Of a DNA stretch of 64,000 nt, positions 18,568 through 24,458 are shown in pieces; the stretch's first letter is position 1; every line of letters starts with the position of its first letter. Source of the stretch: Natronomonas salina (lineage in GTDB: Archaea; Halobacteriota; Halobacteria; Halobacteriales; Haloarculaceae); assembly GCF_013391105.1 (NCBI RefSeq), contig NZ_CP058335.1, positions 1,922,001-1,986,000 of the forward strand. Reading direction: 5' to 3'. The position numbers and the translations under genes are program-made. Under the pieces are notes generated by a model that searched no databases, was not told the origin of the DNA, and worked only from the letters and a program-made list of their open reading frames with translations.

Positions 18568-20697
18568 CTACGCGAACTGCGCGAGGCTCGCGTCCCTGCG
18601 GTCGGCGAGGTACCGGCGGATATCGTCCTCCCGCCAGCCCAGCGGCGAGAGGACGCTCTCGGTGGCCCGGCGGAGCTGTTCTGCGTAGTAGTCGACGTCG
18701 TAGCCGTCGGGCGACTCGTGGGCGAGCCGCACCCGTTCCATCGGGCCGGCGTCGTCGTCGACGACGACGTAGGAGACCCCCTGGCCCGGGTGGCGGTCGA
18801 TGTTCAGGGCGTCGGCCCGCGTCAGCGCGGCGACCGTCCGGGTCTCGCGGTCGTAGTCGGCGAGGGCCTTCGAGACCCGGACCGTCTCCGCCAGGTCGGC
18901 GGGGTCGACGGCGCCGCGCCGGAGGTCGGCGAGGCGGCCGGCGAGGGCGTCGCAGACCCGCTCGGGGTCGCGGGTCCGGTCGAGGGCCTCGATCAGCTCC
19001 CGCTGGACGGTTTCGACGTAGGCGGGGGTGCTGCGCTGGCGGCACTCGATGCCCCGGTACTTGAACTCGCCGTCGTCGCGCCGGCGGCCGAAGTACTTCG
19101 TCAGCGCGCCCGCGGCGTCGTTCCGCCGGGGGACGAAGGCGATCCAGTCGTAGGCGGCCTCGTACTCCAGTTCGATCTCGGCGTCGTCGGAGATCCCCTC
19201 GGCGAGGGCCTCGAGGTCCGCCTGCTCGGCGTCCTCGATCGGCGCCACCCAGAGGCTGTCGACGATGCCGTGGACCACCCGCCAGCCGCCGGCCTCCAGG
19301 GTCTCCTTGGCGTCCAGCAGAATCTCGCGGGCGAAGGCGTTGATGGCCTCGTGGCACTCGATGCGGCCGAACTTCGCGTTCGAGAACCCCTGGTAGCCGA
19401 AGCAGGAGACGAGGATCCACTTGATGGCGTCGACCTTCCCCTCGAGGGTCCGCCGGTCCTCGTCGGCGTCGTCGTTTATCGCTTCGAGGCGCTCCTTGAA
19501 CTCGTCGCGGTCGTCGATGAGCGTCTGCAGCAGCCCCGGGAGGTACCCCTCCTCCTCGCAGATGTTGTACCCCAGGCCGGGGACGTCCTCCTGGTCGGCG
19601 TGGCAGTCACAGCAGATGCGCTCGGGGCTGACGTTCCGGGTGGCGATGACGTTGGGGTAGAGGCTCGAGAAGTCCAGTTCGTGGACGTCCTCGTGGAGGC
19701 CGACGTCCGGCGCGAAGGTGAAGCCGCCGCGGTCGGCCTGCCGGAGGGTCGGCATCGGCTTGAAGAACTCGTGGCGCCAGGAGTGCCACGGCACCAGCAC
19801 GCCCCGGCGGCGGGCCTCGCGTATCTGGATGGCCGTCAGGATGCGGCCGATGCTCGACCACGCCAGCTCCTGCAGCGGGAGCCCCGACTGCTCGATGAGG
19901 TACAGGCAGCCCTCGAGGTTCGTCTGGTTCCACATGAACGTGTTCGAGCGGTCGATTATCGCCCGCCCCGGGACGTTGTAGCGAGCGGGGGAGTGGCCGA
20001 CCTGCCCGTAGCTCTCGTAGGTCGAGGCGGCGGCCAGCTGCTCGTATCCGGGCAGCCGCCCGAGGTCGAACGACTCGCGGCCGGCCCGCTCGGCCAGGTC
20101 GTACAGCAGCGAGACCAGCCGACTGGAGGCCAGGAGGAGGACGTCAGGGTCGACCGACGCGACCCGCTCGCCGACGGTCTCGACGATGGCCGTCTCGCCC
20201 TCGACGGTCACGCCGTCGACGGTCACCCGCCGCAGGTCCCCCCGGCCGATCTGCTCGGTCGGGGCGTCGATCTCGACCGTCCGCAGGTCCCGGTCCGGGA
20301 CCGGAACGGCGTCGTCCTCGGCCGCCCTGTCCTCGACCGCCTCGAGCCAGAAGCGGAACTCGCGGGTGAGGTCGACGTCGTACAGCCGGTAGGTACCGGG
20401 CGTCTTCCAGGCGGCGACGGTGCCGGCGACGTCCCGGACCGCGTCGATGCCCGCGACGTCGACCCGGAGGACCGCCTCGGGGTCGTGCCGGAAGCCGACG
20501 CGCTTGCGCTCGAGGGCCGTCCGCTCCACGGTCGGGAACCCCCGGAGGTGCCGGCGCGCCTCCGCCAGCAGCTCCCGCGTCTCCGCGGAGACGTAGATGG
20601 TCGGGGTGTAGTCCGCCGTGCGCTCGTACGTCGCGCCGTCGTCGGTCAGTTCCCAGGCCAGCACGTCGCCGTCCAGGTAGTCGAACTTGTAGGGCAT
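18568..20697 (-). CDS. polB2: Family B DNA polymerase, PolB2 clade
   Basis: 709 residues. Motif A DFSSLYPNVI (342-351) is intact. Motif B is altered: Lys426-x3-VSCFG in place of Kx3NSxYG. Motif C is HGIVDS (476-481) in place of YGDTDS, so the first Asp is Ile478 while Asp480 remains. The 3'-5' exonuclease DxE site is not recognisable; VEID near 141 is the nearest remnant. This matches PolB2, a divergent archaeal polymerase thought to act in repair or translesion synthesis. It is the last gene of a three-gene operon, 3 nt after the small protein. Confidence 0.9.
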   Translation of the reverse strand: MPYKFDYLDGDVLAWELTDDGATYERTADYTPTIYVSAETRELLAEARRHLRGFPTVERTALERKRVGFRHDPEAVLRVDVAGIDAVRDVAGTVAAWKTPGTYRLYDVDLTREFRFWLEAVEDRAAEDDAVPVPDRDLRTVEIDAPTEQIGRGDLRRVTVDGVTVEGETAIVETVGERVASVDPDVLLLASSRLVSLLYDLAERAGRESFDLGRLPGYEQLAAASTYESYGQVGHSPARYNVPGRAIIDRSNTFMWNQTNLEGCLYLIEQSGLPLQELAWSSIGRILTAIQIREARRRGVLVPWHSWRHEFFKPMPTLRQADRGGFTFAPDVGLHEDVHELDFSSLYPNVIATRNVSPERICCDCHADQEDVPGLGYNICEEEGYLPGLLQTLIDDRDEFKERLEAINDDADEDRRTLEGKVDAIKWILVSCFGYQGFSNAKFGRIECHEAINAFAREILLDAKETLEAGGWRVVHGIVDSLWVAPIEDAEQADLEALAEGISDDAEIELEYEAAYDWIAFVPRRNDAAGALTKYFGRRRDDGEFKYRGIECRQRSTPAYVETVQRELIEALDRTRDPERVCDALAGRLADLRRGAVDPADLAETVRVSKALADYDRETRTVAALTRADALNIDRHPGQGVSYVVVDDDAGPMERVRLAHESPDGYDVDYYAEQLRRATESVLSPLGWREDDIRRYLADRRDASLAQFA

Positions 20698-20700
20698 GGG

Positions 20701-21027
20701 CTACTCCTCCGTTCGCCCGTCGTCTGCTTCGACGTTCGCCGCTCCGTCGGCGTCCGCGTGCCCGCTGGCACGTTCCGATTCCACCGCGGCGAGCCGTTCC
20801 TCCAGGTCGTTGAGTCGCTTCTCCTGTTCGAGGTCGACGGAGACGAGTATCGGAAACAGCGGCTCCTCGTGGTTGAGGTAGCCGCCGGCGTCGGCGTGCT
20901 CGCGGGCGTGCTCGAACAGCCGCTCGAAGGCGGGCGTGTCGCGGCGGCGCAGCGCCCGCTCGAAGTCGCTCCAGCGCTCGCGCAGCGCCCGGACCGCGTC
21001 GCGGTACGTCGGGTTAGTCCGACCCAC
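20701..21027 (-). CDS. Small PolB2-operon protein, function unknown
   Basis: 108 residues from a GTG start that overlaps the end of the upstream gene by 14 nt. The body is charged and helical (YRDAVRALRERWSDFERALRRRDTPAFERLFEHA), followed by EEPLFPILVSVDLEQEKRLNDLEERLAAVE, a likely coiled coil. The C-terminus is a low-complexity acidic tail containing RASGHADAD, the palindromic repeat motif. Position and tight spacing suggest it partners the polymerase or the RecA-like protein. No known domain recognised. Confidence 0.75.
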   Translation of the reverse strand: MGRTNPTYRDAVRALRERWSDFERALRRRDTPAFERLFEHAREHADAGGYLNHEEPLFPILVSVDLEQEKRLNDLEERLAAVESERASGHADADGAANVEADDGRTEE

Positions 21028-21706
21028 GGGCGACCACCTCCGGGGGCGCGGTCGGCGCGGCGGTCCCGGCCCGGGCGCCGGCGCGGGCCTCGAGGACCCG
21101 CCGCCAGAACGCCAGCGTCGTCTGGACGTAGCCGCCGCCGGCGTCGTAGACGAGCGTCTCGAAGTCCTCGCCGACGAACCGGGGGCCGAACCGGGTGGCC
21201 TCGCAGCGCAGCGTCGTCTCGACGTGCTCGGCGACCGGCACGGTCAGGTCGTCGCGCTCCCGGCAGGTGGTCACGACCGGGAGGTCGTGCTCGCGGCGGA
21301 TCGCGGCGACGCGGTCGACGGTCGTCCGGAGCATCGCGTCGGCGCCGGCGCCCTGCAGGTCATCGCCGCGGTACATCGCGTCGACGGCCGGCAGGACGAG
21401 CAGCGCCGTCCCGTCGTCGACGAGGTCGGCGACGCGCTCGACGAGCGCGGCGTGCTGGTGGGCGGTGAACCCCCGGGCGACGCGGACCCGCTCGAGCAGC
21501 CGCTCGCTGGGCGCGAGCCGGGCGAGGGCGTCCGACCGGGCGTGGCCGGCCGCGTCGACCCAGTAGACGGGGCCGTCGTTCAGCAGCAGGTGGTCGAGCA
21601 CGAGCGACTGCAGCGGCCCCGTCGGCCGCCCGTCCGTCTCCAGCAGGTACCAGCGGTCCTCGAGCGTCGGCAGGACCGGCGTCGTCGCGTCGGAGCGTCG
21701 TCGCAT
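21014..21706 (-). CDS. Degenerate RecA/RadA-like protein of the PolB2 operon
   Basis: 230 residues. The layout resembles a RecA-fold ATPase: a strand LVLDHLLLNDGPVYWVD near the start, TALLVLPAVDAMYRGDDL in Walker-B position, VVTTCRERDDL and a final strand pair ETTLRCEATRFGPRFVG. No Walker A GxxxxGK[TS] is present, so ATP hydrolysis is doubtful. The ATG at 21706 was chosen because a minus-strand GGCTTATCG box (about 21730-21738) is 27 nt upstream; a Met at 21829 would add 41 Pro-rich residues. First gene of the operon with the small protein and PolB2. Confidence 0.65.
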   Translation of the reverse strand: MRRRSDATTPVLPTLEDRWYLLETDGRPTGPLQSLVLDHLLLNDGPVYWVDAAGHARSDALARLAPSERLLERVRVARGFTAHQHAALVERVADLVDDGTALLVLPAVDAMYRGDDLQGAGADAMLRTTVDRVAAIRREHDLPVVTTCRERDDLTVPVAEHVETTLRCEATRFGPRFVGEDFETLVYDAGGGYVQTTLAFWRRVLEARAGARAGTAAPTAPPEVVARGSD

Positions 21707-22074
21707 ACGTCGACCGAGCGGGGCGAGCCCGATAAGCCGTGGCGGGCGGTTTCCGGAACTTCTGGTGCCCCGGTGCCCGGCCTCGTCCGGCCGGGACGGG
21801 GCCGGCGCGTCGGTCGGCGGCTCGGCCATCCCACAACCGAAGCCAACGAACGCGAACTAACCGACATTGAGATTCTCACCGATATCGGCGGGAGGACCTC
21901 TGGAATTCCGACTCGATATGTTCTATTCTTCCATAAACGGACGGAAAGTAACGGTACGGTTATGTGACCGCGTCGCACTTATTGAACCAACGTGTCGGGG
22001 GTTCTGTCGGGGCGGGCGTCGGGGCCGCTGGTCCACGAGGTCGCGGCGCGAGCGGGGATGGACCTGCCTGACCC
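21707..22074. other. Promoter region of the PolB2 operon and upstream AT-rich stretch
   Basis: 368 nt with no supportable gene. The minus-strand operon TATA-like box is at about 21730-21738. From 21840 to 21995 the DNA is clearly less GC-rich than the flanks (GATATCGG, ATATGTTCTATTC, CATAAACG, ACTTATTG). This could hold further promoters or protein-binding sites for damage-responsive control of the operon, but no clean palindrome was seen. Confidence 0.4.
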
Positions 22075-22215
22075 ATGAACGAGTTCGTCGAGTGCGTCGA
22101 GTGCGGGTTCGTGACGCTCGCCAGCGGCGGCGACGCCGACCCGGCCGGCTGGGAGTCCTGTCCCGACTGCGGCGCCGCCGAGTTCGCCTGGCCGGGCGAC
22201 CACGGTACAAATTAG
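22075..22215 (+). CDS. Small two-CxxC zinc-ribbon protein, 46 residues
   Basis: Reads MNEFVECVECGFVTLASGG, then WESCPDCGAAEFAWPGDHG. Two CxxC knuckles (CVEC and CPDC) 20 residues apart make a complete zinc ribbon, the layout of the CPxCG micro-proteins common in haloarchaea. Such proteins often act as small regulators or binding modules; several affect growth or biofilm in Haloferax. It lies 38 nt upstream of an Lrp-type regulator in the same direction. Confidence 0.8.
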   Translation: MNEFVECVECGFVTLASGGDADPAGWESCPDCGAAEFAWPGDHGTN

Positions 22216-22253
22216 GCCCAGTCGACAATACGGGCGGCGCCCTCGGTGCAGGT

Positions 22254-23254: not shown

Positions 23255-24262
23255 CTAGCCCGTGACGGCCCGGTAGGTCCGCCCGCGGTTCTCCCCCTCG
23301 GCGACGACGAGGTTGTAGTGGCACATCTTCGAGAGGTGGTTCCGCATCGTCCGCTTCGTCCGGGGCTCCTCGACGCGGCTGCAGTACTCCTCGTAGAGCT
23401 CCCCCGGCGAGATCTCGCCGCGCTCGGCGACGATCTCGTAGAGCGTCCGCTGGTGGGGCGTGAGCGTCTCGACGTTCTTCTGGCGGACCTCCGCGCGCGC
23501 GTCCGGGATGGTCTCCTCGACGACCGACGTCGGGATGCGGTCCAGCCCCTCGCGCTCGGCCCGGCGGGCCGCGTTCCGGAGGACGCCGATGGCCACCCGG
23601 GCGTCGCCGGCGGCGGCGTCGGCGATCCGCTCCAGCTGCGGCCGGTCGACGGCGTCGGGGTCGAGCCCCCGGTCGACGCGGGCCTGGAGGATGGCGACCA
23701 GCTCGTCGAGGCCGTACTTGTCGAAGCGGACGCGCGTGCTGTTGGCCAGCCGGCTGGTCAGCCGCTCGTCGGTGCGGGCGAACAGCTCCTCCTCGCGGTT
23801 GGCGATGAGCACCATCGTCACGTTCGGCAGCGCGTAGAGGTCGTACAGCACGTCCGTGTCCTCCAGCTGGTCGACCTCGTCGAGGACGACGACGTACGGC
23901 GGGCCGTCGTAGGCCCGGAGCCGCTCGAGCAGCTCGTCCTTCGGCGTCGACCGCCGGTGGACGTCGACCGTCCGCCCGATGCCCTCCAGCACCCGGTAGA
24001 GCGCCCGGAACCGGGTGTAGTTCTGCCAGCAGTTGACGTACTGGTGTTCGACGTCGATGACCTCCCGGCGCAGCCGCTCGACGATGAACTTCGCCAGGCA
24101 GGTCTTCCCGGTGCCCGACGGCCCGAAGAGGAAGGTCGTCTCCGCCGGCTCGTCGCGCGCGATGGGCTCGAGGGCGTTCGACAGCTGGTTCGCCTCGGGA
24201 TCGCGGTGGACGACCTCCCGGGGGACGAAGTCCGCCTGCAACACCCGCGCATCCCGTATCAT
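23255..24262 (-). CDS. Orc1/Cdc6-family AAA+ protein
   Basis: 335 residues. Walker A GPSGTGKT at 47-54, Walker B VVVLDEVDQL at 124-133, sensor 1 VLIANRE, and the arginine-containing sensor 2 GDARVAIGVLRNAARRA are present. A C-terminal winged helix (about 265-335: LTPHQRTLYEIVAERGEISPGELYEEY) would bind origin DNA. Haloarchaea have many paralogues, not all linked to an active origin. The minus-strand GCTTATTACC box about 28 nt upstream supports the start. No convincing set of origin repeats lies nearby. Confidence 0.92.
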   Translation of the reverse strand: MIRDARVLQADFVPREVVHRDPEANQLSNALEPIARDEPAETTFLFGPSGTGKTCLAKFIVERLRREVIDVEHQYVNCWQNYTRFRALYRVLEGIGRTVDVHRRSTPKDELLERLRAYDGPPYVVVLDEVDQLEDTDVLYDLYALPNVTMVLIANREEELFARTDERLTSRLANSTRVRFDKYGLDELVAILQARVDRGLDPDAVDRPQLERIADAAAGDARVAIGVLRNAARRAEREGLDRIPTSVVEETIPDARAEVRQKNVETLTPHQRTLYEIVAERGEISPGELYEEYCSRVEEPRTKRTMRNHLSKMCHYNLVVAEGENRGRTYRAVTG

Positions 24263-24458
24263 CGCCCGGGCTGTTGTGACCGGAGGGTAATAAGCGGAAG
24301 TGGGTCGTTTCCGATTCTACCGGGGACGGCGCGGCAGCCGACGGCGACGACTCCAACGGACCGCCGGGACGCGCGACGCGTGTAATCGGCGAACAAGCGC
24401 CACCATCGCAGACGTTTCCGCAAAGGAGACTTACCTGACTGCTCGCGGAAGGTGTGGC

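Follow-up and report, generated by a model that had tools for sequence, protein, structure and literature searches.

In Sulfolobus, DNA damage induces the B-family DNA polymerase PolB2 (Dpo2), which alone accounts for targeted mutagenesis (PMC7390963) and acts as an extender of mismatched termini that lacks exonuclease activity (PMC8764526). An operon that consists of arCOG07300, an inactivated RadA and PolB2 and in many euryarchaea lies close to an arORC2 gene was described in 2014 (PMC4104785); a 2025 study named the small protein PPB2 and the inactivated RadA iRadA, modeled the complex as a heteropentamer, in which the MGRT arm of PPB2 reaches into the cleft of polymerase-iRadA, and reported the enrichment of orc1/cdc6 genes in the neighborhood (PMC11791011). 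Here we analyze a window of 64,000 nucleotides (bases 1,922,001-1,986,000 of NZ_CP058335.1) from the single-contig, 3.75-Mb genome of Natronomonas salina (GCF_013391105.1), which encompasses a three-gene cassette that, given the descriptions of the same gene set in PMC4104785 and PMC11791011, is a haloarchaeal PolB2 mutasome cassette of this known kind. The cassette shares a promoter element with a nearby gene of the Orc1/Cdc6 family (hereafter ORC), and we consider it probable that the PolB2 mutasome is controlled, via this element, by the ORC-family protein, which would be an autoregulator that responds to DNA damage. This reading builds on what was observed: the gene content, the motifs and folds of the proteins, the linkage of the genes, and the shared element, which is specific on the scale of the genome; from these observations we infer ORC binding and damage induction. 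The question addressed is how mutagenic repair gets switched on after damage in archaea outside Sulfolobus; the cassette itself being known, what is new is a candidate damage regulon centered on an ORC-family protein.

To compare the promoters, 80 of the 121 PPB2 places detected were fetched, hand-picked with the strongest first, which together with the window yields 81 loci; the iRadA promoters were counted in 76 of these, five loci without a long iRadA open reading frame (ORF) being left out. Conservation upstream of the start codon emerged on aligning the iRadA starts. The conserved element has the form NGAA-N4/5-GGAA followed, at a distance of 13 to 15 nucleotides (nearly always 14), by a TTA box. 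At the operon promoter of the window, the direct repeat NGAA-N4/5-GGAAAC-N2-CCC is located 14 nt upstream of a TATA-like box that itself lies approximately 26 nt before the iRadA ATG, the layout of a leaderless-type promoter. The string CGGAAACNNCCC-N8-TTA ends 26 nt before iRadA, and a copy at the ORC gene ends 28 nt before the start codon. The element precedes iRadA in 51 of the 76 loci, compared to a mean of 0.07 and a maximum of 2 in shuffled sequences. The first-pass annotation had placed possible damage-responsive control in the AT-rich upstream region: the idea of dedicated control gains support at the sequence level, but the place has to be corrected, the candidate control element lying in GC-rich DNA adjacent to the start codon (21732-21763). 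The AT-rich stretch sits directly before a small plus-strand ORF (22076-22216) that is located between iRadA and an AsnC-type gene and contains two CxxC pairs, resembling a zinc ribbon by eye.

In the genome of N. salina, the strict form of the element is present in two copies, before iRadA and before the ORC gene, and the looser pattern GGAA-N14-CTTAT in six copies, two of which are the same iRadA and ORC sites. We further cross-trained matrices on either 13 non-redundant iRadA promoters or 12 ORC promoters, the window sites being left out in both cases, and scored 127,924 positions. The iRadA-trained matrix ranked the iRadA site first (score 33.6) and the ORC site second (23.5), with the next position scoring 7.9; conversely, the ORC-trained matrix gave 31.4 for the ORC site, 22.2 for the iRadA site and 8.0 for the next position.

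The specificity of the strict pattern (CGGAAACNNCCC-N8-TTW) was also assessed across haloarchaeal genomes, with the reversed pattern as the control. The first 116 genomes contain 57 strict matches, versus 9 for the control; 47 of these precede an ORC (39) or an iRadA (8) gene, 9 precede neither, and one, at a contig end, is unclassifiable. In the 206 held-out genomes, there are 67 strict matches versus 5 for the control, with 55 located before ORC (49), iRadA (4) or PPB2 (2) and 12 before none of these. For all 322 genomes together, 102 of the 123 classifiable matches precede one of the three genes, with 14 control matches in all; the ORC matches counted include a few broken or remote copies (E 1e-11 to 1e-29). 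The numbers of matches that precede no target (9 and 12) are near the respective control counts (9 and 5), so that most of these may be due to chance. The ORFs downstream of these 21 matches were listed and 10 were compared to Pfam, which identified three tyrosine integrases, a radical SAM protein, an XPB-like helicase, an OB-fold protein and a PadR-like protein, with one weak TrmB match below the cut-off and two proteins without a family. At the three integrase genes, the direct-repeat element with its TTA box is located approximately 185-233 nt upstream; these are possibly integrative elements under damage control. The strict element before the OB-fold, radical SAM and XPB-like helicase genes and a gene for an unknown protein is a repair-like set that falls within the number predicted by the control. 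At two other loci, the element lies 26 nt before PPB2 with no iRadA in between; these are possibly stand-alone PPB2 units.

The window ORC belongs to the AAA+ proteins of the Orc1/Cdc6 family (TIGR02928, above cut-off), and the gene is located 1.5 kb upstream of the operon. Using the best PPB2 match per stretch and an E-value below 1e-60 to define window-type ORC, we found such a gene upstream of the cassette in 43 of the 81 loci, each time on its strand and never on the opposite one (0/81); all 43 linked ORCs retain the Walker A motif. Sulfolobus Orc1-2, an Orc1/Cdc6-family protein, binds its own promoter and those of damage genes via the ANTTTC motif (DDRE; PMC9738581). The haloarchaeal locus resembles this system in combining a protein of the same family with an element present both at the promoter of its own gene and at putative damage genes, in this case those of the mutasome, but differs in the element itself, a GGAA repeat with GGAAACNNCCC, and in that regulation is, in our case, only inferred. 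In this reading, the operon would be transcribed from the leaderless-type promoter that carries the GGAA direct repeat; the ORC protein would bind the element at its own and the iRadA promoters, regulate its own gene, and switch on iRadA, PPB2 and PolB2 after DNA damage, as Orc1-2 does with its element. The shared element speaks only indirectly for such damage induction. The output would be translesion synthesis by an extender polymerase of the IVD type (see below), accompanied by a RadA-like subunit that is ATPase-dead and by a small helical one.

Several observations weigh against control by the ORC protein and, in part, speak for a rival reading, in which the mutasome and its element stand but the element is bound by a different protein, such as a repressor, an activator or a TFB/TBP variant, and the ORC gene is only a fellow target. 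The winged-helix domain of the window ORC scores below the Pfam cut-off, and such weak recognition makes DNA binding by this protein less certain; furthermore, 17 of the 51 element-bearing iRadA loci lack an ORC gene in the fetched stretch, and 8 of the 76 iRadA promoters carry a different box, of the UV type. By the regular expression used, the element is missing from 25 of the 76 iRadA promoters and from 9 of the 43 ORC-linked loci, one of the latter having CGGAATTTCGGAAAC with an ATTAT box that the expression does not allow. The strict matches include related promoters, many of the plasmid-borne ones being close relatives, so the match counts are not independent and the cross-training is the cleaner test. 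The term 'polB2' does not appear in the accessible text of two papers on UV arrays of Halobacterium NRC-1, although the cassette of this strain is broken (see below). Finally, the ANTTTC hexamer is absent from both window elements; for this reason, our claim is limited to the window ORC working like Orc1-2, not being Orc1-2. Nevertheless, we regard a different binder as rather unlikely: most of the strict matches precede ORC genes (39/56 and 49/67), a large majority that fits self-regulation of ORC; ORC-type proteins bind DNA, with Orc1-2 as a precedent (PMC9738581); and the eight loci with the UV-type box have no linked ORC.

The position of the element also bears on the proposal, made in PMC4104785 from the arORC2 linkage, of a role in alternative initiation, under which the element would be an origin-recognition-type site and the ORC-PolB2 group would serve an alternative start or restart of replication rather than damage mutagenesis. 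Many of the cassettes are encoded on megaplasmids, in line with such a role. However, each promoter has a single site, which keeps a constant spacing of 14 nt to the TATA-like box and lies 18-72 nt before the start codon; no repeat array was found in the region upstream of the window ORC; and the iRadA promoter carries the site even though no ORC gene directly follows. This reading thus appears quite improbable.

The different box at some iRadA promoters points to a second type of control. The UV-B box of Halobacterium radA1 is TTTCACTTTCA (PMC2556686), and 8 of the 76 iRadA promoters contain two copies of TTYCA[CG], which corresponds to this box exactly or nearly. Loci of this type make up 0 of the 43 with a linked ORC and 8 of the 33 without one (Fisher p 7e-4, uncorrected for relatedness). 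In the seven genomes that harbor UV-box loci, we detected no strict GGAAAC element, nor any ORC match with an E-value below 1e-90. Among the ORC promoters, inspected in 41 of the 43 ORC loci (two had too little upstream sequence), two carry the published UV-box sequence TTTCACTTTCAC. Like the window element, the UV box is a direct repeat that precedes the TATA box of damage genes; the window operon differs in lacking TTTCACTTTCA, which is absent upstream of both iRadA and the ORC gene. Judging from promoter sequences, the presence of this box at some iRadA and ORC promoters connects the cassette with the UV regulon of haloarchaea. In the N. salina genome, TTTCACTTTCAC occurs five times, always on the plus strand; one copy is upstream of radA and another is probably upstream of top6B (by eye, with the ORF out of frame).

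With the possible exception of a clamp-binding motif, the cassette proteins conform to the published descriptions. For PolB2, the NCBIfam model NF004418 gives a score of 994 bits and Pfam DNA_pol_B an E-value of 1e-22. Motif A is DFSSLYPN, and motif C reads HGIVDSLW, so that the first aspartate of DxD is replaced (IVD). None of the 67 PolB2 homologs has DxD in motif C (0/67), and motif A along with the second aspartate of motif C is preserved in these 67 sequences. The published D(K/R) loop motif is present as IIDRSNT, with DE at this place in many homologs. A clamp-binding motif is present at the end of PolB2 or iRadA in a fraction of the published mutasomes; the window PolB2 ends with DASLAQFA, and SLxxF-like tails, judged by eye, recur among the homologs and may or may not represent this motif. 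In four genomes, the PolB2 frames extend over approximately 800-1015 codons with a split or partial match, perhaps due to inteins.

The loss of the first aspartate of motif C could be taken as a sign that the cassette has become inactive or is decaying, and that what remains plays a structural part, and the copy in Halobacterium NRC-1 is indeed broken without a growth defect. We consider this explanation most improbable because Sulfolobus Dpo2 carries this substitution too and yet polymerizes robustly (PMC8764526), motif A and the second aspartate of motif C are kept in the 67 homologs, and both the operon and the promoter element are conserved. The polB2 gene of NRC-1 is dispensable (PMC1906834). 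However, at this locus on pNRC200 (L173, 5577-10169), we obtained no tblastn match to iRadA, PPB2 is reduced to a fragment (codons 34-71), and an IS200/IS605 transposase gene precedes polB2. The knock-out therefore says little about the cassette, and we rejected it as counter-evidence. In Haloferax volcanii, too, polB2 can be deleted, according to unpublished work cited in PMC7776575.

The RadA-like protein is recognized by Pfam Rad51 with an E-value of 2e-4 from the single sequence, and the family profile matches RadA structures in the PDB with an E-value of 2e-13; an AF2 model (pLDDT 84.9) matches DMC1/RadA structures (E 2e-10). In the window protein, no Walker A motif was found, and the ATPase residues and the N-terminal domain are missing from the RadA fold. 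Among the 76 homologs, GK[ST] occurs anywhere in three and GxxxxGK[ST] in one, near the C-terminus and away from the P-loop position. We favor the start at 21706 because the homologs align from this position and because the TATA-like box and the conserved element lie between the two candidate starts; the longer ORF, from 21829, was rejected on the same grounds. No second copy of iRadA was found in the N. salina genome.

The helical protein of 108 residues, taken as undescribed in the first-pass annotation, is not new but already in print as arCOG07300/PPB2, and its N-terminus, MGRTNPTYRD, has the published signature with MGRT and Arg9. The pattern [MV]GR[TS] is matched by 75 of the 81 PPB2 homologs. 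The AF2 model of the window protein is all-helical (pLDDT 90), and a Foldseek search of the PDB with this model produced no match (best E 4.4).

Mutagenic polymerases with a RecA-like subunit that lacks the full set of ATPase motifs are also present in bacteria, in the ImuA-ImuB-DnaE2 system, to which the cassette was initially likened. The analogy holds as a similarity of role but not as kinship: the bacterial system combines C-family and Y-family polymerases, whereas the window encodes a B-family polymerase with a 108-aa helical partner and no Y- or C-family member in the cassette. Membership in that system was therefore rejected. In contrast, the likeness to the PolB2 mutasome extends to the gene order iRadA-PPB2-PolB2, MGRT, the IxD form of motif C, the D-R motif, the inactive RadA and the Orc1/Cdc6 gene nearby; the difference is the promoter element shared with ORC, of which there is no mention in the accessible text of PMC11791011 or PMC4104785. 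Formation of a complex and a translesion function of the trio can be predicted from homology to Sulfolobus Dpo2 and from the published models; further features of the published mutasome are a heteropentameric make-up and a beta-alpha motif by which PolB2 docks on iRadA.

The original outline of the locus, a minus-strand cassette that encodes a RecA-like protein without Walker A, a 108-residue helical protein and PolB2, is confirmed to the nucleotide by the ORF list, including the overlap of 14 nt between iRadA and PPB2 (21014-21027) and the gap of 3 nt between PPB2 and PolB2 (20698-20700). The linkage of the trio, whose absence would have refuted the first-pass interpretation, is conserved in other haloarchaea: PPB2 is matched in 80 and PolB2 in 81 of the 116 haloarchaeal genomes, iRadA is located directly before PPB2 in 80 of the 81 loci, and PolB2 is found within 150 nt of PPB2 in 54 and within the fetched stretch in 70. 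At eleven loci, the gap between PPB2 and PolB2 is approximately 0.6-4.4 kb, with iRadA and PPB2 still together. In Haloarcula marismortui pNG600 (L174, 1158-10157), the intact cassette is accompanied by a gene for SRAP (SOS response-associated peptidase) between ORC and iRadA; the H. marismortui ortholog of the window ORC is RR_RS02255. In the window, two regulator genes on the plus strand, one AsnC-type and one DUF7344, and the small ORF mentioned above stand between iRadA and the ORC gene.

Features of the PolB2 mutasome locus in the N. salina window (positions within the window)
Feature	Position	Strand	Basis
PolB2, B-family polymerase with IVD replacing DxD, 709 aa	18568-20697	minus	ORF list, family profiles, homologs
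PPB2 (arCOG07300), helical, 108 aa, GTG start, begins MGRT	20701-21027	minus	ORF list, homologs, model
iRadA, RadA-like without Walker A, 230 aa from ATG at 21706	21014-21706	minus	profiles, model
Operon promoter element AGAA-N5-GGAAACCGCCC-N8-TTAT; TATA-like CTTAT at 21732-21736	21732-21763	minus	upstream alignment, genome scans
Orc1/Cdc6-family gene, 335 aa, proposed regulator	23255-24262	minus	profile matches, linkage
ORC-gene promoter element, degenerate first half followed by CGGAAACGACCC-N8-TTAT	24290-24320	minus	genome scans

In the openly licensed literature in PubMed Central, we found no report of an Orc/Cdc6 damage regulator or of this element in haloarchaea. More tentatively, and with somewhat less confidence than in the regulation of the mutasome, it is possible to envisage an SOS-like haloarchaeal circuit in which the ORC protein would bind GGAA-N5-GGAAACNNCCC and control both itself and the mutasome, integrative elements might have adopted the operator (as suggested by the integrase genes in three genomes), in the manner of prophages that tap into LexA, and in some lineages the mutasome would be under the radA UV box. 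Should the ORC protein prove to be the switch, transcription after damage would be governed in haloarchaea as well by a relative of the replication initiator, through a different operator.

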